45,734 bases of DNA, taken from a virus. Made by a program: the position numbers and the translations under genes. Below are positions 1,258 through 45,340 of this stretch, in pieces (the first letter of the stretch is position 1; every line of letters begins with the position of its first letter). Location: positions 1 through 45,734 of IMG/VR virus record IMGVR_UViG_3300025728_000016. One strand, written 5' to 3'. The notes beneath the pieces are model-generated. The model did not search any database. It was not told the DNA's origin and saw only the letters and a program-made list of their open reading frames with translations.

Positions 1258-1607
1258 TTTGGTTGCTCCGGTTGATTTCCCGTCTGGCCCTGTCTCCAAG
1301 GCCAGCCAGTGAAATCTGGTGTTGCTGGGTTCCGTTACCTGCCACGGTTTCCAGGGCTGCCTTTCGGCTCTCTCCACCACGCTCATCGCCTGAGTCCTCT
1401 CTTGGCCTGCGTCACACATTTCATGACCGGTGTTCTTCGCTGGCTGGCTTGCGTGGCTTCGCGTACTCACATCTGGTGAGCACGGCCAGTTCCAGAGCTG
1501 GCATGGGTCGACTGTTTGTTGCTCGCATTTACCGGTTGCCCGGGGTAGTCGATCGCGAGGATCTCAGCAGGGGTAAAGAGCGGTTCGGAGCGGTGTGTCG
1601 CTGCGAT
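1258..1607 (-). other. Leader of the leftward early transcript; possible tiny coupled ORFs
   Basis: Between the predicted PL start (about 1607) and the YubB-like gene lie 350 bases. One frame (62 codons, ending at 1467) overlaps a GTG start at 1470 by GTGA. Its only ATGs fall inside the promoter and operator, so a PL transcript could not use them. A 27-codon ORF starting ATG CCA GCT (about 1502) has no ribosome-binding site. By analogy with lambda this could be an antitermination leader, but I saw no convincing boxA/boxB. Confidence 0.25.
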
Positions 1608-1613
1608 GGGTGA

Positions 1614-1642
1614 AATATAGGAGTACCCATATTTCATGTCAA
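1614..1642 (-). promoter_or_regulatory. Leftward early promoter PL
   Basis: On the minus strand TTGACA (1642-1637) and TATATT (1619-1614) are separated by exactly 17 bases, an almost perfect sigma-70 promoter. Both hexamers overlap repressor-type operators, so transcription leftward should be silent in the lysogen. Confidence 0.8.
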
Positions 1643-1656
1643 TGGGTATTCCCATA
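1616..1656. promoter_or_regulatory. Left operators OL (two sites)
   Basis: Two 16-bp near-palindromes, TATAGGAGTACCCATA (1616-1631) and AATGGGTATTCCCATA (1641-1656), are 25 bp apart. They match the three sites between repressor and cro (consensus TATGGGTATTCCCATA). One covers the -10 and the other the -35 of PL. The repressor at 4891-5556 is the obvious ligand. Confidence 0.8.
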
Positions 1657-1674
1657 AATTTATAGGCAGGCGAT

Positions 1675-1697
1675 AAAAAGCCCGCACTTGGCGGGCT
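1675..1697 (-). terminator. Rho-independent terminator after the DUF1654 gene
   Basis: Stem AGCCCGC/GCGGGCT with a 5-nt loop is followed on the minus strand by TTTTT, five bases after the stop of the gene at 1702. It insulates that gene from PL. Confidence 0.8.
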
Positions 1698-1701
1698 CTA
1701 T

Positions 1702-1953
1702 TTAGGCTTCGCAGTATTCTCGCCAGCCTATCTTGAAGGAGTCTTCATCGACCCTCTGCACCCGGATGCCTTGAGTGCTGGCTATCTCATTCATCAGCCT
1801 CCACCAGTCTGACTTACCCTCATTGGGCAGCCTGGAGACGGTAACGAACTGGACCTTCTGAACATTGGGATCGCTGATGATCTCTTTAACGCGGTGGCCG
1901 ATCTGCTCGTAGGAGCGGGGCTTAATCTGGGTGAACTCGGGCTGCTGAAGCAT
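1702..1953 (-). CDS. DUF1654 family protein, SOS controlled
   Basis: This 83-residue protein has the DUF1654 pattern: a SYEQIGHRV helix near residue 14, then the line VSRLPNEGKSDWWRLMNEI. DUF1654 proteins are small and, to my knowledge, restricted to Pseudomonas and their phages. The start has a strong site (TGGAGGTTCACC then ATG). A perfect LexA box lies 22 bp upstream of the start and a terminator closes the gene, so it is a monocistronic SOS unit inside the immunity arm. It is likely expressed when the host is DNA damaged. Its function is not established. Confidence 0.85.
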   Translation of the reverse strand: MLQQPEFTQIKPRSYEQIGHRVKEIISDPNVQKVQFVTVSRLPNEGKSDWWRLMNEIASTQGIRVQRVDEDSFKIGWREYCEA

Positions 1954-1974
1954 GGTGAACCTCCATTTCTACTG

Positions 1975-1990
1975 CTGTATGCATATACAG
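1975..1990. promoter_or_regulatory. SOS (LexA) box
   Basis: CTGTATGCATATACAG fits the CTG-N10-CAG consensus perfectly and is palindromic at its ends. It lies just upstream of the DUF1654 gene, overlapping its likely promoter (minus-strand TTGGAT upstream). The same 16 bases recur at 44,256-44,271. Confidence 0.9.
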
Positions 1991-2056
1991 TAAAAAGGAT
2001 CCAAACGAATGGCAATAGGCTTGGAGTACAAATGTTCTCCTGCGGCAGTCGGGCGC

Positions 2057-2080
2057 AAAAAAGCCCGCGAATAGCGGGCT
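2057..2080 (-). terminator. Rho-independent terminator
   Basis: Stem AGCCCGC/GCGGGCT, the same stem as at 1679-1697, is followed by six T on the minus strand. It ends the transcript of the genes at 2090-2609 before the SOS unit. Confidence 0.8.
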
Positions 2081-2089
2081 CGGAAGCAA

Positions 2090-2293
2090 TCAGTCCTCCA
2101 GTAGGACTAGGGTCAGTAGAACCGTCTTCAGATTGTCATCGATAGGCCTCAAAGCGGCCCGTACCTTAGCCGCAAGACGGAGATTTCCGGAGTCTTCAGC
2201 CCAGTCGGCTATCTCATCAATGGCCGCTGCCAGTGCGATCTGGTTGTCATTGAAAGCCTTCAGTAGGCCAGGGAGCATATCCAAGTTGCGCAT
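2090..2293 (-). CDS. Small helical protein of unknown function
   Basis: This 67-residue protein starts MRNLDMLPGLLKAF behind an excellent site (GGAGGG, spacing 5 to ATG). It is amphipathic and all-helical in appearance (QIALAAAIDEIADWAEDSG, then a second helix). I do not recognise a family. A longer frame exists upstream but its residues look non-natural and lack a start signal. It lies between a terminator and the gene at 2382, probably in one leftward transcript with it. Confidence 0.65.
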   Translation of the reverse strand: MRNLDMLPGLLKAFNDNQIALAAAIDEIADWAEDSGNLRLAAKVRAALRPIDDNLKTVLLTLVLLED

Positions 2294-2381
2294 AGCGATC
2301 CCTCCGCGTGGAAAGGGAAGCGTAGCAGGCGGGAAGGGTAGAAACGTAAACTCGTGCGAGACAGGCTGGACGGGCATCAAA

Positions 2382-2609
2382 TCAGCAGCGTCCTCCGAGA
2401 GCGTATGCATCGGAGAAAAGCCTTTTCAACTGGCTGGCGTTCTCCTGAAATGCGGATATTTCGGGCCTATCGATTGTCATGCGGAACGATCGGTCAGCGC
2501 CGACGATCTGGAATGTGGCATGACAGCGCCCAGTTCGTAGCAGCGTCACTTCAATGCCTGGCGGCGAGAGGAAGGGAAGATTGCGAGTGATGCGGTCATG
2601 GTAGGGCAT
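2382..2609 (-). CDS. Hypothetical protein, 75 residues
   Basis: The frame begins MPYHDRITRNLPFLSPPG with CAGGAGAACGCT before the ATG. The middle (TGRCHATFQIVGADRSFRMTIDRPE) looks like a beta-rich small domain. No family recognised. It is the distal part of the minus-strand immunity arm, 88 bp upstream of the small helical gene. Confidence 0.55.
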   Translation of the reverse strand: MPYHDRITRNLPFLSPPGIEVTLLRTGRCHATFQIVGADRSFRMTIDRPEISAFQENASQLKRLFSDAYALGGRC

Positions 2610-2735
2610 AGCGTTCTCCTGGATGAGTTCCAGGCCGAACTTATGTGACTGGATCAATACCGCAAAGAGATTTGCAGTTAATTGCGAAGCTGGGAAAGCA
2701 GATACGAAACGCCCGGCGCTGGGCCGGCCTTTCTG

Positions 2736-3137
2736 TTAAGTACGCCAAATAGGCTCGAAAAACAGTTTTATCTCTTTCGGGGTATGCCGAGAATTCAAGA
2801 CGCCTTCACAGATTCTGGCAAACACAGCGCTATCCATTGGCTCCTTCGGAACCAGCAGTTGACGACGAACACCTTCCTCCAGGGTCTGAACTGACTCAAT
2901 CCTTGCTTTGGAATACAGGACAAAGCTAGCAGTTCGGATGAAAGGGTGATCGCCTGGCCCTAATAAGCAGCAGGAGTCATGGAAGCGTTTCGGGCGGATC
3001 GTCGAAATGCTGACCATGAGCACGAGCTTTTGGTCACTGATTGGGTCGTTGAGCAGAATGAACAAGTGCTTTAGGTCGGGCTGTTCTTCTGTGCCAGATG
3101 GCACCAGTACAGTGGCGCGACGAGTGACTATGAACAT
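2736..3137 (-). CDS. Putative toxin of a Panacea-type TA pair
   Basis: This 133-residue protein overlaps the 3' end of the Panacea gene by 10 bp, so translation should be coupled. It has a compact sheet-rich look: RATVLVPSG, KHLFILLNDP, KLVLMVSIST, then GPGDHPFIRTASFVLY and LLVPKEPMDSAVFARICEG. The G-D-H-P-F-I segment followed by a conserved serine resembles a small PemK/MazF-like SH3-type family found next to diverse antitoxins; that comparison is from memory. In PanAT loci the neighbour of the Panacea protein is the toxin, which is the main basis for this call. Chemistry and target are unknown. Confidence 0.6.
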   Translation of the reverse strand: MFIVTRRATVLVPSGTEEQPDLKHLFILLNDPISDQKLVLMVSISTIRPKRFHDSCCLLGPGDHPFIRTASFVLYSKARIESVQTLEEGVRRQLLVPKEPMDSAVFARICEGVLNSRHTPKEIKLFFEPIWRT

Positions 3138-3700
3138 CTGATCCTCGAAAATAGCTGATCCATGCTGTTGTGACTTTCCAATTCTTGCTGAGCTTGTCGA
3201 GCCTCTGCCGGTGTTCTTCCGAGAGCGACAAATACATCCCTGTAATCTATAGGACGTGACGACCCTTCAGGATCTTGCCACTCTGCACAATGGTCATGAG
3301 TGAAGTTCCGCAGCTCCCAAGGGGCCATGGCGCCGTACTCAGCTTGCACGGCTTCGAGCACATCAATGTCAGCCTCGCTAAGCGCTGGAAGGTCCAGATC
3401 CTGCTGACATGCTGTTTGTTTCAAGCTGAGCATATGGCCCGCTCGATCGGCGATCAGACTGTCCCAACCGTCGCTGACCGAGAACCCCGAGCCGTTCATG
3501 AGCTCGTAGGTTTTCGAGAGCACTGGGCCATGCGGCATAGATACCATTCGGTCGCCTGAGATCGGGGCATCAAACATATCCAGCGCACGGCGGTCGGCAA
3601 GATAAAGAAGCTTCATCAATTTCAAAATTGATAAGCATCCGTCATTCCTTTGAATAAAAAAGGCTGCCATTTGAGCAACCTTGCGTTCGTTGAACGCCAT
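3128..3700 (-). CDS. Panacea-domain (SocA/DUF4065) antitoxin
   Basis: The 190-residue protein carries the Panacea core: LSILKLMKLLYLADRRALD at about residues 27-45, then SGDRMVSMPHGPVLSKTYELMN. This domain neutralises many unrelated toxins in PanAT systems and is also found in SocA-type adaptors. The start is the ATG with GGAGGT 7 bases upstream. A consensus promoter (3,781-3,808), a 7-bp inverted repeat just ahead of the start and a large hairpin lie upstream, so the pair has its own control and could be expressed in the lysogen. A phage-carried PanAT pair would suit superinfection defence or prophage maintenance. Confidence 0.85.
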   Translation of the reverse strand: MAFNERKVAQMAAFFIQRNDGCLSILKLMKLLYLADRRALDMFDAPISGDRMVSMPHGPVLSKTYELMNGSGFSVSDGWDSLIADRAGHMLSLKQTACQQDLDLPALSEADIDVLEAVQAEYGAMAPWELRNFTHDHCAEWQDPEGSSRPIDYRDVFVALGRTPAEARQAQQELESHNSMDQLFSRIRCS

Positions 3701-6618: not shown

Positions 6619-7440
6619 ATGCACAGCCAACAGATTTTGAGCAACACCCCTCAAGCCGCGCCACGTTTTGCTATCTCAGAAAACGTGGCGCGCGTCGTCT
6701 CCATGTCAAGCCAAGAGATAGCAGATCTGGTTGGTTCTCGGCATGACAAAGTGAAGCAATCAATCGAGCGACTCGCAGTGCGGGGTGCAATCCAACTCCC
6801 CCCAATGGGGGAAGTCAAAAATCACCTTGGTCAATTGGTCGAGCAGTACCAAGTCTGCAAGCGCGACAGCTTCGTGGTTGTCGCCCAGCTTTCTCCAGAA
6901 TTCACCGCCGCGCTTGTTGACCGCTGGCAGGAGCTTGAGTCACGGCAGTCCGTCACGCTTCCTGACTTCTCTAATCCGGCAGCTGCTGCGCGCGCTTGGG
7001 CTGATGAGGTCGAGAAAAAACAGGAGGCGGAAAAAGCACAGGCCCTCCTCAGCATCGAAGTGCAGGCTCAGGCCAAGAAGATCGACCACCTTGAGAACCT
7101 GTTCAAGGAGGGGATGACACCGACGCAGTTCTGCAAAGGACTCAACGGGGTCAACGTTATGCAGGTTGGTCACTTCCTTGAGGGCCGCAGCTGGCTCTAC
7201 AACGAGAGCAAGTCCGGTACTCGCTGGCGCGTCGGCTCGTACGCCCGCGACATGTACATGACCGAGCATCAACAGGAAATCACGCCTCACGGCAAAGAAT
7301 CGTTCATCACTTTCACACCAGTCCTGCTGTGCAAGGGCGCTGTACGCCTTTACGAACTGTACCTGGCCGGCAAGTTGCCCATGAAGAAGAACTGGGACGG
7401 CTTGCATACCCACGACAAGGCTGTTCGGGGTGCCGCATGA
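6619..7440 (+). CDS. Rha-family regulator with C-terminal antirepressor domain
   Basis: This 273-residue protein has a Rha module at residues about 30-110 (VVSMSSQEIADLVGSRHDKVKQSIERL, later VAQLSPEFTAALVDRWQELE), a coiled linker rich in E/K/Q, and a C-terminal antirepressor-type domain (MTPTQFCKGLNGVNVMQVGHFLEGRSWLY, GKESFITFTPVLLCKGAVRLYELYLAGKL). Rha proteins interfere with growth of some phages in certain hosts, and the C-terminal domain type binds DNA or repressors. The start at 6619 follows GAGTGAGG. A perfect hairpin repeat lies inside codons 14-25, which may be an autoregulatory site. Confidence 0.88.
   Translation: MHSQQILSNTPQAAPRFAISENVARVVSMSSQEIADLVGSRHDKVKQSIERLAVRGAIQLPPMGEVKNHLGQLVEQYQVCKRDSFVVVAQLSPEFTAALVDRWQELESRQSVTLPDFSNPAAAARAWADEVEKKQEAEKAQALLSIEVQAQAKKIDHLENLFKEGMTPTQFCKGLNGVNVMQVGHFLEGRSWLYNESKSGTRWRVGSYARDMYMTEHQQEITPHGKESFITFTPVLLCKGAVRLYELYLAGKLPMKKNWDGLHTHDKAVRGAA
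6657..6692. repeat. Hairpin element copy 2 (GCGCCACG family)
   Basis: Perfect 13-bp arms CGCGCCACGTTTT and AAAACGTGGCGCG with a 10-base loop lie within the 5' coding part of the Rha gene. The outer word GCGCCACG is shared with the copies at 3,817 and 15,484; the inner bases change in a compensating way. Confidence 0.6.
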
Positions 7441-8339
7441 GCATGGGCCTTATGGTCGCCGCGATGAAGATTCGCGTCGGCAATCCACTGCGCAAACTGG
7501 TGCTGCTGAAGCTGGCTGACAACGCCAGCGATCTGGGCGAATGCTGGCCTTCGTATCAGCACATCGCCGATCAGTGCGAGATCAGCAAACGCTCCGTCAT
7601 GAACCACATCACCGCCTTGTGTGATGCAGGTCTCCTCCGTAAGGAAATCCGCAAGGGCGGCCCGAAGGGTAACTCCTCCAATGTGTACTTTCTGACGCTG
7701 GAGGGTGGTGCACCTCCTGCACCAGGGGTAGTGAAGGACGTTCACCAGGGTGGTGCAACTGATACACCCCCTAGTGCAGGAGATTCACTAGGGGGTGGTG
7801 CAGGAGCTGCACCCAGAACCAGTCACTCTTCTGAATCAGTCAAGGAACCAGTCACTGAACCAATTGCGACCCAGGCTGACGCCAAGGCCGCGACGGGGCA
7901 AGTTGTCCCGTTCACTCCCCAGCAGCCGCGGTGCGCCATCCCCGAGGACATGCCGGGCCCCAAAGACCAAACGAGCAAGACGTTCAAGACCTGGGCGAAC
8001 TACGCCATGGCCTATCGCAAGCGCCACGGTGCATGGCCTGTCTGGAATGCCAAGGTCGCCGGCCAGGTGAGCCAGATCATCGACCGTCTCGGCATCGAGG
8101 TTGCCCACCACGTCTCCGCCTTCTTCGTGACCATCAACGACGCGAAGGTCGTGACCAACATGCACAGCATTGGCGATCTGCTGCTGAAGGCCGAGGGCTA
8201 TCACACCCAGTGGGCCACCGGTCGCCAGATGAATGGCCGCACCGCCCGCCAGATCGAAGACACCCAAGCAAACATCAACGCCGCGCAGCAGGCCGCCCAG
8301 AACATCCGCGAAGGAGGCCCGCGCAATGCTTTCCTCTGA
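7437..8339 (+). CDS. Replication initiator, lambda O-like
   Basis: The 300-residue protein starts in an ATGA overlap with Rha. The N-terminus is a winged-helix replication domain (LRKLVLLKLADNASDLGECWPSYQHIADQCEISKRSVMNHITALCDAGLLRK), the usual phage O-type fold. The middle, about residues 88-130, is Gly/Ala/Pro rich because the DNA there encodes five origin iterons. The C-terminal half (TSKTFKTWANYAMAYRKRHGAWP and following) probably contacts the helicase loader. Position after the regulators and before the Nin genes matches lambda. Confidence 0.85.
   Translation: MSMGLMVAAMKIRVGNPLRKLVLLKLADNASDLGECWPSYQHIADQCEISKRSVMNHITALCDAGLLRKEIRKGGPKGNSSNVYFLTLEGGAPPAPGVVKDVHQGGATDTPPSAGDSLGGGAGAAPRTSHSSESVKEPVTEPIATQADAKAATGQVVPFTPQQPRCAIPEDMPGPKDQTSKTFKTWANYAMAYRKRHGAWPVWNAKVAGQVSQIIDRLGIEVAHHVSAFFVTINDAKVVTNMHSIGDLLLKAEGYHTQWATGRQMNGRTARQIEDTQANINAAQQAAQNIREGGPRNAFL
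7708..7812. promoter_or_regulatory. Phage replication origin, five iterons
   Basis: Five 15-bp elements of the form GTG(C/A)A-N5-T(G/T/A)CAC occur at 7708, 7731, 7753, 7774 and 7798, spaced 21-24 bp apart. Examples are GTGCACCTCCTGCAC and GTGAAGGACGTTCAC. Each is a near palindrome. They lie inside the O-like gene, exactly as lambda ori lies in gene O, and a less GC-rich stretch follows. They are the expected binding sites of the protein encoded around them. Confidence 0.8.
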
Positions 8340-39924: not shown

Positions 39925-40434
39925 ATGCCACGAATCCAATCCGATGCGGCGGGCGGCAAGAACGTACTAGCCTTCCTCGACATGCTGGCCTGGTCCGAAC
40001 TGGGCGCCGATTACCTGCGCCGCAGCGATGACGGCTACAACGTGATCGTCACCGGCACCGACGGCGTGCTGGAGATGTTCTACGACTACAGCACTCACCC
40101 ATTCGCCAATGGCCGGAAGTCAAAGGTGTTCAGCCGTTCTGGCCAGACCTCGAACGCCGCCGGCCGGTATCAGTTCATGCTGAAGGATTACGCCCACTAC
40201 CGCGACCAACTGAAACTGTCCGACTTCGGGCCGGTGAGTCAGGATCGCTGGGCCATCCAACTGATCAAAGAGCGCCGCGCCCTGGACGACGTAAAGGCCG
40301 GACGGGTCGAGTCAGCGATCGCTAAGTGCCGGAACATCTGGGCAAGCTTGCCCGGGGCAGGGTATGGCCAGCGCGAGCACAAGATGCAGGATCTGCTCGA
40401 CCAGTATGTCGCCGCTGGTGGGGTGCTGACATGA
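39925..40434 (+). CDS. Endolysin, lambda R-like
   Basis: The 169-residue protein fits the lambda R transglycosylase family: NVLAFLDMLAWSELGADYLRRSDDGYNVIVTG with catalytic-type Glu in W-S-E, then THPFANGR, SNAAGRYQFMLKDY and a C-terminal WASLPGAGYGQREHKMQDLL. It cleaves peptidoglycan at lysis. No signal peptide is visible, so it depends on a holin, which must be one of the membrane proteins 25 kb upstream. Confidence 0.92.
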   Translation: MPRIQSDAAGGKNVLAFLDMLAWSELGADYLRRSDDGYNVIVTGTDGVLEMFYDYSTHPFANGRKSKVFSRSGQTSNAAGRYQFMLKDYAHYRDQLKLSDFGPVSQDRWAIQLIKERRALDDVKAGRVESAIAKCRNIWASLPGAGYGQREHKMQDLLDQYVAAGGVLT

Positions 40435-40955
40435 CTGACCTGCGAGCTACGCTGCTCGCCTACGCACTGGGAGTGGCCGCAGCATCAGGTCTGGCGTGGT
40501 GGGGGCTGTCTTCCGCGTATGGTCGCGGCGAGGCGGCGGCCGATATGCGCTGGAAAGCCCAATGGGCCGATCAGGAGACGCTCCAGGCAAAAGGTTTGGC
40601 CGCCGCCACGACGGCCAATCGAACCGAAGAGCAACGCCGCCAAGCGGCAATCAATCAGGTAGCGAATGATGCGAAACAACAACAGGTTGCGGCGGTGGTT
40701 GATGCTACTGCCGCTGACGCTGCTGGCCAGCGGGTGCGCGACCAAGCAGGAAAACTGGCTGCCGGAGCAAGTTGCACCGCCGGCGATTCCGGAGCTACCC
40801 GCCGAAGCCAAGCAGCCACCCGCGCCGCCATGGTGCTTTCCGACCTGTTCCAGCGGGCTGACGCGCGAGCGGGAGAGCTGGCAAGAGCATATGACGCAGG
40901 CCGAATAGCCGGGTTGGCATGTGAGGCAGCCTATGCGGCTCTCAAATCAAAATGA
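40431..40955 (+). CDS. Inner spanin Rz
   Basis: The 174-residue protein overlaps the endolysin by ATGA. It has one N-terminal membrane helix (LLAYALGVAAASGLAWWGLSS) and a long helical periplasmic part (AQWADQETLQAKGLAAATTANRTEEQRRQ), the DUF2514/Rz type. It joins Rz1 to bridge the two membranes in the last step of lysis. Confidence 0.9.
   Translation: MTDLRATLLAYALGVAAASGLAWWGLSSAYGRGEAAADMRWKAQWADQETLQAKGLAAATTANRTEEQRRQAAINQVANDAKQQQVAAVVDATAADAAGQRVRDQAGKLAAGASCTAGDSGATRRSQAATRAAMVLSDLFQRADARAGELARAYDAGRIAGLACEAAYAALKSK
40666..40908 (+). CDS. Outer spanin Rz1, embedded in Rz
   Basis: This 80-residue frame lies wholly within Rz in another frame, the classical arrangement. It has a lipoprotein signal (WLMLLPLTLLASGC) and a Pro-rich periplasmic part (LPEQVAPPAIPELPAEAKQPPAPP). 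The lipidated Cys anchors it in the outer membrane. Confidence 0.88.
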   Translation: MMRNNNRLRRWLMLLPLTLLASGCATKQENWLPEQVAPPAIPELPAEAKQPPAPPWCFPTCSSGLTRERESWQEHMTQAE

Positions 40956-40985
40956 TTGTGATCTTCTAAAGTGCGGTGATATAAC
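40956..40985 (+). promoter_or_regulatory. Promoter of the AT-rich accessory gene
   Basis: TTGTGA (40956-40961) and TATAAC (40980-40985) with an 18-base spacer begin right at the end of Rz. No operator of the phage repressor is visible, so it is probably active in the lysogen. Confidence 0.5.
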
Positions 40986-41026
40986 CGATCGCGATAGGAG
41001 TCTATTCATCAAGTTTGGGGGTTTAT

Positions 41027-42175
41027 GTGTCGACTGTAACATATGAAGATACCAATCAGATGGTCAAGGCGCTCGCTCATGAGTTTGAAGATAGTTGGGT
41101 AAATCAGGAGTCGCTTAAATTTCTTAGGCGTGGGAAGTATGCCAAGACTCAAGTAAATATAAAGCATGTCCCGGAGGAGTGGAGCTCGAAAAGTTTTAGG
41201 TGCCAAAATGGACATGATTTTTATCCTGATTGGCTAGCAAAAATTCCACCGGTTTCTTGCTTTAAGCTGAAGAGTGGTATGTTCAGGCAGGCAACTGTTA
41301 ATACCGCGTGTACAGTTTGTGAAGCTGGCTTTGATATGGAGATTTATCAGCCGCGAATCCGTGGTGAAAGCGCAATATTTGGAGATGAAGCGTTTAGGGA
41401 GGTTGATGGGAAAACAGTATTGTGTTACTCGTTTGTGGGCTTTTCTGGCGGACCCAAGAAGCGCAGAACGTTCAAGAAAGAGTTCGATAAAGCCAAAAAA
41501 TACCTAGCTCCCACTATCAATCCGGATGACTGGGTTCTTCATGTTAAAGATTTAGTTGGTACCGAGCGCCGTAGAGGTATTGAACACTTGGCCCATCTCA
41601 ATCGTGATCAGGTTATCAAAGGTTTGAAGCAAGTATTGGCTGTGATTGCAAAGTACAGTGCTTCTCAAAGCCTCAACGTGTACAGCGCGATCAGCGTAGT
41701 AAAGCAAACGCGACTCGCGGGTGCAACAAAGCTACAAGCTCAGTCGTTCGCGTATAGCGCTGCTCTGATGAGAGTGGTGTCAGAATATACGAGAGCTGGA
41801 GTTATGCCGGCTTTCTACTTTGAAAGAACGGGGTCGGATGGGTGGGCTAAAGACTTATTTGACGGGGGGCGTCTCACGTTGTTGTGGGCCCGTTTAACCA
41901 ATGGGGTACCGGTGAAAAGCCCAGAGTTTGTTTTGCCAACGAATAATTTTCTTTTGGAAGTTGCAGATTCTATTAGTTATGTTGTTGCCAGAGAGTTGTA
42001 TGCCGTCGGGAGTCGTGCTTCAGGTAAGCCGCTTAACGCGGAGTTTGATACGAAGCTGTTAGGCCGTACGAGGTATATATGGACAGATGCAGAGGGTGGG
42101 TGGAATAATTTTTTTGGGAATGGCTTTCCGATGGCGGCGATGTTTAAAGGTACTGATTGGGAACGATTTATTTAG
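41027..42175 (+). CDS. AT-rich accessory gene: zinc-ribbon plus DUF3800-like protein
   Basis: The 382-residue protein has a possible zinc ribbon at residues about 60-105 (FRCQNGHDF, SCFKL, TACTVCEAGF). After it comes a region resembling DUF3800, an RNase H-like fold: FGDEAFREVDGKTVLCYSFVGF for the acidic first strand, WVLHVKDL, and near the end NNFLLEVADSISYVVAREL for the L-Q-x-A-D helix. This similarity is by eye. GTG at 41027 has GGGGG upstream; a TTG four codons earlier is possible. Base content is far more AT rich than the phage, so the gene was acquired separately. Its place after the lysis genes and own promoter fit a defence or other cargo gene. Confidence 0.6.
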   Translation: MSTVTYEDTNQMVKALAHEFEDSWVNQESLKFLRRGKYAKTQVNIKHVPEEWSSKSFRCQNGHDFYPDWLAKIPPVSCFKLKSGMFRQATVNTACTVCEAGFDMEIYQPRIRGESAIFGDEAFREVDGKTVLCYSFVGFSGGPKKRRTFKKEFDKAKKYLAPTINPDDWVLHVKDLVGTERRRGIEHLAHLNRDQVIKGLKQVLAVIAKYSASQSLNVYSAISVVKQTRLAGATKLQAQSFAYSAALMRVVSEYTRAGVMPAFYFERTGSDGWAKDLFDGGRLTLLWARLTNGVPVKSPEFVLPTNNFLLEVADSISYVVARELYAVGSRASGKPLNAEFDTKLLGRTRYIWTDAEGGWNNFFGNGFPMAAMFKGTDWERFI

Positions 42176-42266
42176 TTGTTGGCTAGATGCATTGAATGCT
42201 AACCAAGCTGGGCGATCCATGGCGAGAAAATTTGCTTGAGCATTGAGGGTATTCGATGAAGCCTAA

Positions 42267-42303
42267 AGCCCCCGGCTTATCGGTAAACCGGGGGGGGCTA
42301 TTT
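42267..42303. terminator. Bidirectional terminator hairpin
   Basis: AGCCCCCGG pairs with CCGGGGGGGCT around a 12-nt loop, between the accessory gene and the convergent small genes. Only ATTTAA follows on the plus strand and TTTAGG on the minus strand. Confidence 0.55.
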
Positions 42304-42332
42304 AACATACGACCCGTTATGGGTAACGCCGG

Positions 42333-42539
42333 TTACAGCATTTTGCTGAGCGGCACAGGTGGCTCAGGCTCGGCGGGCTTTCCCAGCACGTAAACCACTT
42401 GGGTAGTCAGTGACGCGCCTTGTACTGTCGGCTGCAGCCCTGGGACCACGGCCAGCAAGTGCCAGCCTTGGGCGAGCTTGGCATTCGCATCACGGCTGCC
42501 GTTGACTTCGATTACCTGTTTCACTTCACTGAACTGCAT
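42333..42539 (-). CDS. Small protein, paralog A
   Basis: The 68-residue protein starts MQFSEVKQVIEVNGSRDANAKLAQGWHLLAVVPGL with AAGGAGTCGAT before the ATG. It shares the pattern L-x-x-G-W-x-L-L-A-V ... Y-V-L-G-K-P-A with the gene at 42621-42854, so the two are tandem duplicates. The tail is Pro/Glu rich. Small sheet-helix protein of unknown function, oriented against the late genes; likely moron. Confidence 0.7.
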   Translation of the reverse strand: MQFSEVKQVIEVNGSRDANAKLAQGWHLLAVVPGLQPTVQGASLTTQVVYVLGKPAEPEPPVPLSKML

Positions 42540-42620
42540 ATCGACTCCTTGCTTTGCACAGTGGCCGTTCCAGGCTGGCCCGGCCGGAGTTCCTGTCTGC
42601 TCGTTATGGGTAACGCGGCG

Positions 42621-42854
42621 TCAGTCCTTTTTATCGTTTCCAAAAGCCCCAGCAGCGATGAACTGCTGACGGATCGGATTATTTGGATCGACCTCGGGTG
42701 CGGGCTTGCCCAATACGTAGCAAGGCAGATGTTTGCCGTTGTCACCATAGGAAGACGACGTCACTGCCAATAGCTTCCAGCCATCCCTAAGATGGCTATT
42801 GACCAATGACTCCCCGAACACTTGCTTGATTTCGACTGCATCGCTCATCTGCAT
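42621..42854 (-). CDS. Small protein, paralog B
   Basis: The 77-residue protein starts MQMSDAVEIKQVFGESLVNSHLRDGWKLLAVTSSS with AAGGAGCAAGACCG before the ATG. It repeats the I-K-Q-V, G-W-K-L-L-A-V and Y-V-L-G-K-P-A words of paralog A and has an extra C-terminal helix (NPIRQQFIAAGAFGND). The two genes are 81 bp apart and probably form one transcript. Family unknown to me. Confidence 0.7.
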   Translation of the reverse strand: MQMSDAVEIKQVFGESLVNSHLRDGWKLLAVTSSSYGDNGKHLPCYVLGKPAPEVDPNNPIRQQFIAAGAFGNDKKD

Positions 42855-42955
42855 CGGTCTTGCTCCTTGCACTGCATTGAGGCCGCGCCAGCCGGGCCCG
42901 GCCAGGGATGAGCGATTCTAATCACAGATTCGCCACCTGGCATGACGGCGGGCAT

Positions 42956-42980
42956 AAAAAATCCCCTAGGACGCCGGGGG
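42956..42980 (-). terminator. Minus-strand terminator near the prophage end
   Basis: CCCCCGG...CCTAGGGG forms an imperfect stem on the minus strand, followed by ATTTTTT. It would stop leftward transcription entering from the flanking DNA. Confidence 0.6.
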
Positions 42981-43161
42981 CTGGCTATGCAAGGGCCGGA
43001 CGGCCTGAGAACTGAATCTGCCTGCTGAGCAATCCGCACAGCCTACGGTTTAATAACTCTCAGTCAAACCTCTGAAAATCAATGGGGCAAAAATGGGGCA
43101 ACTCGTACGCCATTCCATGCCAATCCATGCTATTTAAGCGGCGTTCAATATTACTGGAAAG
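42981..43161. other. Possible right attachment region
   Basis: No gene is visible. The segment has a direct repeat TGGGGCA-AAAA-TGGGGCA (43084-43101) and a second one TCCATGC (43114 and 43124). Such clustered short direct repeats resemble integrase arm-type sites, and phage genes stop here. I could not compare with the left end, so the core site is unknown. Confidence 0.35.
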
Positions 43162-43198
43162 CCGCCTGTAAGCCCCGTTCGGTATGGCTTGCAGGCGG
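43162..43198. terminator. Stable hairpin ahead of the lipoprotein frame
   Basis: Arms CCGCCTGTAAGCC and GGCTTGCAGGCGG pair over 13 positions with one T-G, loop 11. It is followed by TTTGGG on the plus strand and CTTT on the minus strand. A weak terminator for either strand. Confidence 0.45.
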
Positions 43199-43199
43199 T

Positions 43200-43463
43200 T
43201 TGGGCATTAATACCCGAGCACAATTGGCGTTTGTCAGTTTGGCTGGATGCGCGAACCACCCACTGGACTGCGCCACCGGCCTGATTGCTTGGGATGATTG
43301 CCTTCCTGGCACGAAAGGATACGAGATTCGGCAGCAAAGCTTGGCCAATCTCGCAGGAGCAAAGGCGGCGAAAGATGCGCGGGATGATGCTCAATGGAGA
43401 TCCTACGGCGCCACTCCGGGCACTGATGCTTACGTCAGTTGTCGCGTTCAGTTGAGCAAATAG
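43200..43463 (+). CDS. Small lipoprotein frame, probably N-terminally damaged
   Basis: The frame encodes LAFVSLAGCANHPLDCATGLIAWDDCLPGTKGYEIRQQ and ends SYGATPGTDAYVSCRVQLSK. The L-A-G-C lipobox and the C-terminal words match a small Cys-rich lipoprotein family I know from Pseudomonas. The available start is TTG directly inside a hairpin, with no ribosome site and a hydrophobic stretch too short for export. The Cys usually preceding R-S-Y-G appears as Trp. It may be a decayed copy at the prophage junction. Confidence 0.45.
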   Translation: MGINTRAQLAFVSLAGCANHPLDCATGLIAWDDCLPGTKGYEIRQQSLANLAGAKAAKDARDDAQWRSYGATPGTDAYVSCRVQLSK

Positions 43464-43469
43464 GCCCGC

Positions 43470-44195
43470 TCACCCACCGAACAGATCATCCTGAGGGTCG
43501 CTGTCGACCGCCGCGATCAGATGCGGCCCCTGATTGCGCACATTCCCCACATCCTTGCTCACCTCGAACCAGGTAAATTCCTCGGTCGACCTGCAGCACT
43601 CCTTGGCGATCTCGGCGGCGCGCTCTGGCGTCGTCTCGGGATCAACCCATTCGCGAGCGTGCTCCGGGCTCAGCACCACTGGCCGGCGGTCGTGAATGTC
43701 CACCATGCCCTGATCTGAATCCGCAGTGATGATCACAAACCCGTCCTGCGGGTCTGGCTCCAGCCCCTCATGCACTTCTGCCAGCGCGGCGAAGAACATT
43801 GGGCCTTCCTCCTTCAGCCTGATGAAGTAGGGCTGCTTCTTCTTCGGATCATCCGGATCCTTCACCCACTCGAACCAGCCGTTGGCCGGGGCGAGCGCTC
43901 GGCCATTCGGCCACAGTTGTTTGAAAAACCTCCCTGTCATTACCGTTTCAACCCTGGCATTGATCGGCGCCGGACGTTTTCCTTCACCTTTCGCCCAGAA
44001 CGGCGACCATCCCCATTTCACTTTGTCCACGCTCAGCCCGCCGTCCACCGGCCGGATAATCTCGACCCGGGTCGACGGCGCAACGTTGAAGCGCTGAATC
44101 GGCCAGAGGTCGTAGCCGTTGATGACGATCTGCTTAGACGCCAGGTCTTTGAGGTAATGGTCCATCGGCTCGTAGATCGAGTAGCGTCCGCACAT
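43470..44195 (-). CDS. yedK: YedK/HMCES-type SOS-associated protein
   Basis: The 241-residue SRAP protein starts MCGRYS, so Cys2 becomes the N-terminal catalytic residue after Met removal. Further conserved words are FNVAPST, VKWGWSPFWAK, NARVET, ANGWFEW and HDRRPVVL. It forms a stable thiazolidine crosslink with abasic sites in single-stranded DNA and protects them. A perfect SOS box lies 60 bp upstream, shared with the divergent operon. Host and phage copies are both known; this one may be either. Confidence 0.93.
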   Translation of the reverse strand: MCGRYSIYEPMDHYLKDLASKQIVINGYDLWPIQRFNVAPSTRVEIIRPVDGGLSVDKVKWGWSPFWAKGEGKRPAPINARVETVMTGRFFKQLWPNGRALAPANGWFEWVKDPDDPKKKQPYFIRLKEEGPMFFAALAEVHEGLEPDPQDGFVIITADSDQGMVDIHDRRPVVLSPEHAREWVDPETTPERAAEIAKECCRSTEEFTWFEVSKDVGNVRNQGPHLIAAVDSDPQDDLFGG

Positions 44196-44228
44196 GGTGT
44201 CACCTGTCGAAAATCGGCTTATACAGTA

Positions 44229-44271
44229 TTGACCACGATAGCTCAGCTTAGTTAACTGTATGCATATACAG
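44229..44271 (+). promoter_or_regulatory. SOS-controlled promoter with LexA box
   Basis: CTGTATGCATATACAG (44256-44271) is a perfect LexA box and identical to the one at 1975-1990. It overlaps the start region of a likely promoter TTGACC (44229-44234) - 17 bases - TTAACT (44252-44257). It lies between divergent genes and may control both. Confidence 0.85.
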
Positions 44272-44289
44272 TATCAGAGAGAGCTGGCC

Positions 44290-44583
44290 ATGTATTTCCT
44301 CATCACACCGCGAATACGCTTAGGCGTGGCGATCGACAAAAAGGAGCTCCCCAAGATTCTCCCGGTCCGGGGAGATGTCCACATCATCGAAACGCATGAC
44401 GAACTGCTCGGGCGTACCACCACTACCGCCTGGGTATTCACCGCTGCCCCGGGGCCGGGAGTGCTTCCCCGTTTGCTGGACGTGACCATCACCGGAATGG
44501 CGACGAATGGGATGAACCTCACTGGCGTCGAGGTGATAGACGATGCGTTCTATGCGCAGTCATGGTGGTGCCGCTTTGAGTGA
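44290..44583 (+). CDS. Hypothetical SOS-regulated protein, 97 residues
   Basis: MYFLITPRIRLGVAIDKKELPKILPVRGDVHIIETHDE follows the LexA box by 18 bases with GAGAGAGCTGGCC before the ATG. The C-terminal half (LPRLLDVTITGMATNGMNLTGVEVIDDAFYAQSWWCRFE) looks globular. It is the first gene of the SOS operon and overlaps the UmuD-like gene. I do not know the family's function. Confidence 0.7.
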   Translation: MYFLITPRIRLGVAIDKKELPKILPVRGDVHIIETHDELLGRTTTTAWVFTAAPGPGVLPRLLDVTITGMATNGMNLTGVEVIDDAFYAQSWWCRFE

Positions 44584-44926
44584 CGGCATGCTTTTCGATC
44601 AGCAGAAAATCTCCCTCGATGAATTGTTCAACATCCGAGATCCGGGCACGTACCTGGTCAAGGTGGAAGGTGACAGCATGGAGGGCGCCGGCATCTTCTC
44701 CGGCGACCTCCTCATCGTGGACAAGGGCATGGAGCCGGCCGAGGGGATGATCATCATCGCTGTGGTCGACCAGGAGCCGACGGCTAAATACCTGACTTTC
44801 GAGTCTGGGATGCCCGTGCTCCGATCAGCGAGCCCGAAGTACCCACCGCGGTACATTCTGGAGAACAACGACTTCGAGGTTTGGGGCGTGGTCACCTACA
44901 GCATCCGCGACCACGATAGGAATTAG
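44543..44926 (+). CDS. UmuD/LexA-like S24 peptidase without partner
   Basis: The S24 domain is complete: YLVKVEGDSMEGAGIFSGDLLIVDKG with the nucleophile Ser in GDSM and the Lys in DQEPTAKYLTFE. From this start (GAGGTGAT upstream) it has 127 residues; an ATG at 44588 would give 112. There is no DNA-binding domain and no clear Ala-Gly or Cys-Gly cleavage pair in the short N-terminal arm, so it resembles processed UmuD'. No UmuC gene follows. It could modulate the host polymerase V or be a remnant of an umuDC-like operon. Confidence 0.8.
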   Translation: MRSMRSHGGAALSDGMLFDQQKISLDELFNIRDPGTYLVKVEGDSMEGAGIFSGDLLIVDKGMEPAEGMIIIAVVDQEPTAKYLTFESGMPVLRSASPKYPPRYILENNDFEVWGVVTYSIRDHDRN

Positions 44927-45284: not shown

Positions 45285-45340
45285 ATGGCGATATCGGGCT
45301 CAAGCGCCTGATTGGTAAGGGGAATAGCCTTATTCCATTG

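Follow-up and report, generated by a model that had tools for sequence, protein, structure and literature searches.

A rare stand-alone zinc-ribbon-like–DUF3800 gene, a candidate anti-phage nuclease, lies in an accessory-gene slot of a Pseudomonas prophage

Here, we report that a gene encoding a zinc-ribbon-like site followed by a DUF3800 domain is accessory cargo, not a core gene, in a real hotspot of a prophage, as related prophages share the boundaries of the slot and carry different genes between them. The gene is intact, conserved, horizontally scattered and partnerless; its product belongs to the DUF3800 type and has a paired Cys/His site, and the gene sits in this cargo slot. It lies in a viral record of 45,734 nucleotides (IMG/VR record IMGVR_UViG_3300025728_000016, hereafter the window), whose nearest phage records are Pseudomonas phages. 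We consider it most likely that the product is a stand-alone Pseudomonas prophage cargo nuclease with an anti-phage role (probability roughly 0.45), where the presumed metal-dependent nuclease activity is carried over from the DUF3800 family and the presumed anti-phage role from the context, i.e., a relative with an Abi gene in this slot and a plasmid homologue near a type I restriction-modification operon. The features discussed below are collected in Table 1.

Table 1. Features of the slot and of the zinc-ribbon-like–DUF3800 gene (window coordinates)
Feature	Position	Strand	Basis or remark
Rz-type spanin, flanking the hotspot on the left	40434..40955	+	DUF2514, E 9.9e-34; matches the "Rz-like spanin" of phiPSA1
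Rz1 ORF, 80 codons, overlapping/nested in Rz	40666-40908		lipobox LLASGC
Variable cargo interval, spanin end to SRAP 3' end	40937..43512	.	boundaries common to nine relatives, contents differ
Zinc-ribbon-like–DUF3800 gene, 382 aa	41027..42175	+	GTG start (in-frame TTG 41015 possible); full-length homologues
N-terminal conserved segment, residues 1-58	41027..41200	+	three-sequence alignment
Zinc-ribbon-like segment, residues 59-98	41201..41320	+	ligand positions kept in three homologues
DUF3800 domain, residues about 117-330	41375..42016	+	Pfam on homologues; hhalign with 13 DUF3800 proteins
GDEA motif, residues 119-122	41381..41392	+	D120-E121 correspond to D-E of DESG by Pfam coordinates; invariant in three homologues
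H172	41540..41542	+	equivalent of the nearly invariant histidine in "ELH" of DUF3800
FERTxxDGWAK block, residues 265-275	41819..41851	+	E266 corresponds to D/E on a later DUF3800 strand
LEVAD, residues 310-314	41954..41968	+	D314 is the equivalent of the invariant aspartate in QLAD of DUF3800
SRAP peptidase, flanking the hotspot on the right	43470..44195	-	PF02586, E 5.9e-52

The window shares 45,644 identical bases with a second IMG/VR record, IMGVR_UViG_3300009036_000245, which reaches 14,387 bases further left and has an integrase gene at its beginning. We considered this record as a second independent Pseudomonas observation and rejected it, as the base-for-base overlap at 100% identity indicates that the two records most likely represent one contig. 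An imperfect 18-base repeat (15/18) is found at position 415 of the longer record, beside the integrase gene, and at position 45340 of the window, past the phage genes; it is a possible attachment site. On the right side, the SRAP gene on the minus strand is followed by an S24 peptidase gene on the plus strand. SRAP together with S24 (UmuD-like) genes, which occupy 43470-44926 of the window, recur at the right end of related prophages.

Briefly, the spanin was used as the anchor and 80 loci were taken, among which nine relatives have both flanks (L016, L018, L021, L033, L034, L037, L041, L045 and L048). In all nine, the DNA similarity to the window stops at 40924-40936 and restarts at 43513-43528, and the interval in between ranges from 0.26 kb (L041) and 0.35 kb (L018) through 2.6 kb in the window up to 4.0 kb (L045). 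The preliminary description had placed a cargo hotspot between the spanins and the right end and had proposed to look for different defence genes at this locus in related prophages; the sharp boundaries and varied contents bear out the first, and the comparison returned different genes, one of them of a known Abi family. This one is encoded in L048 (6415-7215), exactly between Rz and SRAP, and matches both Abi_alpha (PF14337, E 2.4e-24) and PADLOC PDC-S47 (E 6.9e-24); it shares the slot with our gene, whereas the two protein families are unrelated. By eye, the slot holds a Dam-type DNA methyltransferase look-alike in L033, L034, L037 and L045 and response-regulator-like genes in L016, i.e., its contents are mixed and not purely defensive. 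Two further loci, whose right flanks are different or missing, carry large proteins at this place: after Rz in L030 (8123-10363), a protein of 746 residues that matches NACHT weakly and may be a NACHT/STAND-type defence protein, and an AAA_16 ATPase beside a putative membrane protein after the Rz-like match in L062 (6380-8812), possibly a two-gene defence module. Unmatched cargo proteins were also seen in the slot (L045 8175-8762, L033 6622-7260 and L019 6440-7153), those of L033 and L019 being alike, with MMHACM words in both. No DUF3800 gene was found in any of the 44 Rz-sharing relatives searched, so that the gene is accessory rather than core, the latter having been named beforehand as the status that would speak against the cargo reading. 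The slot resembles phage and satellite defence hotspots in its fixed flanks, its exchangeable accessory genes and its position at a prophage end. We found no paper on an Rz-to-SRAP slot in Pseudomonas prophages, and the slot is delineated here.

The gene itself is one intact open reading frame with two candidate starts, of which the GTG is more likely on sequence grounds; a GGGGG motif lies upstream of it at ribosome-binding distance. The span 40956-42175 initially assigned to the gene thus contains an intact reading frame, but its first part (40956-41026) is non-coding. The expected sharp drop in base composition after the spanins is there: GC content is 0.459 in the gene versus 0.591 across the remaining window, and only two of the 892 sliding windows of gene length are as GC-poor, both overlapping the gene, which makes it the AT-richest place in the window. 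The flanking reading frames also agree with a position between the spanins and small minus-strand genes. The latter, two similar small ORFs within the variable interval (42333-42539 and 42621-42872, minus strand; common pattern VKQV...GW.LLAV...YVLGKP), have no Pfam match and were not seen among the Rz relatives. The gene had further been credited with its own promoter, which we do not uphold: the scan found two sites in total against 1.7 expected by shuffling, i.e., chance level, and neither is on the plus strand in front of the gene. Please note that by eye one can make out a TTGTGA-18-TATAAC-like pair immediately before the gene; it is missing from the matches of the promoter scan.

Searched alone, the window protein gave nothing in Pfam (up to E 10), PADLOC, NCBIfam or PHROGs, and tblastn against phage records found no homologue. 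Two full-length homologues were obtained elsewhere, one on an Acinetobacter baumannii plasmid (L003; 35% identity across 91% of the length) and the other, through a search with the ERTxxDGWAK motif, on the viral contig IMGVR_UViG_3300032212_000035 (L012; 40% identity). The three copies align end to end without frame breaks at a mutual identity of 33-40%. The gene is very rare among viral contigs, because scans of 2.9 million of them turned up no copy besides those of L012 and the window's own contig. Genome-contig scans confirmed no homologue, although these scans require exact short motifs and may miss chromosomal relatives, and no relative was found in E. coli genomes searched at the DNA level. 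A match on a Hymenobacter plasmid (E 0.2) was judged to be chance. We found no partner gene common to all three loci, and no match in PADLOC, which covers known and candidate defence systems, for any of the three copies. On one side of the plasmid homologue, about 1.3 kb away and beyond an IS5 transposase gene, is a type I restriction-modification operon that includes an "abortive infection protein"; on the other side are two genes annotated as GTPases. In L012, a small DUF3892-like gene, just under the cut-off, lies directly upstream of the homologue (7324-7536, minus strand), and the same phage carries a C-5 cytosine methyltransferase adjoining a PAPS-reductase-like gene (1500-3652).

The likeness to DUF3800 noticed earlier in the acidic words of the protein was substantiated by a Pfam match of a homologue and by a profile-profile comparison with controls. 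The L012 homologue matches Pfam DUF3800 (PF12686) with 26.5 bits, over the curated cut-off of 21 (E 1.2e-5, profile positions 17-149 of 149), and the plasmid homologue matches with 17.5 bits, under that cut-off (E 0.0069, profile positions 5-149), whereas the window protein itself scores below reporting. For comparison, 13 annotated DUF3800 proteins from plasmids were gathered with a consensus probe; six of them were re-tested against Pfam and all were clearly over the cut-off. With hhalign, the profile of the three homologues aligned with this set over 189 columns, i.e., near the whole domain, at a probability of 90.5-91.2% and a score of 52; the reversed profile scored 15.7, and none of 30 column shuffles exceeded 24.1. 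In this alignment, H172 falls on a near-invariant histidine, E266 on the acid of a later strand and A313-D314 on the invariant AD of QLAD, while the aspartate of GDEA (residue 125 in the plasmid copy) falls on position 5 of the Pfam profile, the position that also takes D7, D11 and D24 of the true members L099, L101 and L109 if their first positions are ungapped. D120-E121, H172, E266 and A313-D314 are invariant across the three homologues, and the four motif positions come in the same order as in DUF3800. As hhalign and the Pfam coordinates equate them with DUF3800 motif positions, all candidate catalytic positions are kept by alignment, despite different surrounding letters (GDEA for DESG and E-x-AD for QLAD).

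The family differs from other DUF3800 proteins in what precedes the domain. As read from the alignment, its layout is an N-terminal segment (common pattern Y..N..V..L..W.N.....F....Y.KT.V....P), a zinc-ribbon-like site, the DUF3800 domain and a short tail, so that about 115 residues stand before the domain; among the 13 comparison proteins, DESG is within 20 residues of the start in ten, and a paired Cys/His site ahead of DESG was found in none. From the Cys/His cluster of the preliminary description, C59, H63, C95 and C98 are kept as ligand positions, whereas C80 is not conserved. C59-x3-H63 and C95-x2-C98 are matched in the three-sequence alignment by CSNGH/CEEC and CQNC/CDNC, i.e., the spacing is C-x3-H/C-x2-C in the window and viral copies and C-x2-C/C-x2-C in the plasmid copy. 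The second ligand thus swaps between Cys and His while the other ligand positions are kept, a pattern that a metal site would show. The L012 copy also has a weak Pfam match to Zn_ribbon_Brz, below the cut-off. We infer that the site binds a metal, presumably zinc.

An RNase H-type nuclease fold is suspected for this domain, judging from the family. A sequence search of PDB chains (phmmer plus profile search) gave no match. The full-length fold model, made from only two sequences, has a pLDDT of 36, and the model of the domain alone (L012 homologue in the first row, window domain in the second) is weak as well (pLDDT 49.5, pTM 0.53). With this weak domain model, NurA and RNase HI were the best Foldseek matches (E 0.024 or worse, sub-significant), and VIA-align placed HIV RT residues 320-403 (connection domain) and the Prp8 RNase H-like domain on top (Z at most 6.7), with prokaryotic Argonaute chains (PIWI proteins) in lower rows. 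The fold matches are mostly RNase H-like proteins, all of them sub-significant.

Taken as a defence nuclease, the protein would be a stand-alone "moron" in which the N-terminal segment and the zinc-ribbon-like module recognise a nucleic acid, or perhaps a nucleoprotein, that belongs to an incoming phage. The DUF3800 core would then cleave RNA or DNA at a metal-dependent site formed by D120/E121, E266 and D314, with H172 possibly aiding cleavage, and this would protect the lysogen, in which the gene is presumed to be expressed. It is doubtful, though conceivable, that the protein goes further and represents a new type of single-protein defence effector, i.e., a zinc-ribbon sensor joined to a DUF3800 RNase H-type nuclease, acting with no partner or guide, in a hotspot that had not been delineated.

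Several observations count against a defence nuclease and favour other readings to different degrees. PADLOC gave no match for any copy, the fold models are poor, and some occupants of the slot, such as the response-regulator-like and Dam-like methyltransferase genes, have no evident defensive function. The gene follows Rz by 71 bp on the same strand, no terminator was found between the two, and the promoter signal is at chance; it could therefore be a late lytic gene, sharing a transcript with the lysis genes and acting during the phage's own lytic growth rather than in the lysogen, on host RNA or DNA, on a competitor element or in counter-defence. However, L016, L020 and L062 carry their cargo in this slot on the opposite strand, which shows that late expression is not required there; the phage family can do without the gene, and one homologue belongs to a plasmid, a replicon that lacks a lytic cycle. 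We regard this as a fairly unlikely alternative. Another alternative is an addiction gene: the DUF3800 protein would supply the nuclease toxin for a small toxin-antitoxin or RNA-guarded system by which the mobile element is stabilised. Other DUF3800 genes are found on very small enterobacterial plasmids, e.g., the 5,033-base E. coli plasmid L099, a setting that points to a selfish or protective role; structured RNAs are associated with other DUF3800 genes (Rfam DUF3800-I and -IX), and the small DUF3892-like gene stands just upstream of the L012 copy. Against such an addiction gene, the three loci have no common partner, and Rfam gave only sub-threshold chance matches around our gene, with no DUF3800 RNA or other convincing RNA, which leaves it unlikely, somewhat more so than a late lytic role.

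The changes in GDEA and E-x-AD relative to the 13 DUF3800 proteins mean that the activity could differ or be lost, and at the extreme the protein would be a non-catalytic nucleic-acid binder or regulator that has kept the DUF3800 fold. This we consider improbable, as D120, E121, E266 and D314 are invariant at 33-40% identity, as expected of a selected active site. Weighing these alternatives, we favour the anti-phage cargo nuclease.

The preliminary description had seen in this gene the best candidate for an undescribed defence or host-control system; the family itself, however, is not new. DUF3800 is already catalogued, and for some CRISPR loci the literature describes it as a nuclease with an RNase H fold: it was modelled with this fold and found beside Cas12a2 (PMC10910872), and it is listed as such a nuclease in VI-F and V-A2 loci (PMC12669027). 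Our protein is like the TPR-DUF3800 of Cas12a2 and the DUF3800 of VI-F loci (PMC10910872, PMC12669027) in joining DUF3800 to another module in a defence setting. In contrast to these, it has a zinc-ribbon-like N-terminus, no TPR was found by Pfam in the homologues, and the window gene stands alone in a prophage; no CRISPR effector was found next to any copy, judging by the annotated genes around the one on the plasmid and by a reading of the ORFs adjoining those of the window and L012. In the literature on DUF3800, no functional study of a stand-alone member was found. As far as our searches reach, the zinc-ribbon-like–DUF3800 architecture and the Rz-SRAP prophage slot are undescribed.

DUF3800 is widespread, yet no solved relative turned up, and its nuclease role in the papers we found is a structural prediction with no assay. 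The interval from the end of Rz to the end of SRAP offers a handle for mining more accessory genes in related prophages. A minimal stand-alone DUF3800 protein with candidate catalytic residues, encoded in a slot that also hosts an Abi gene, would permit a simple one-gene test of the anti-phage nuclease idea.
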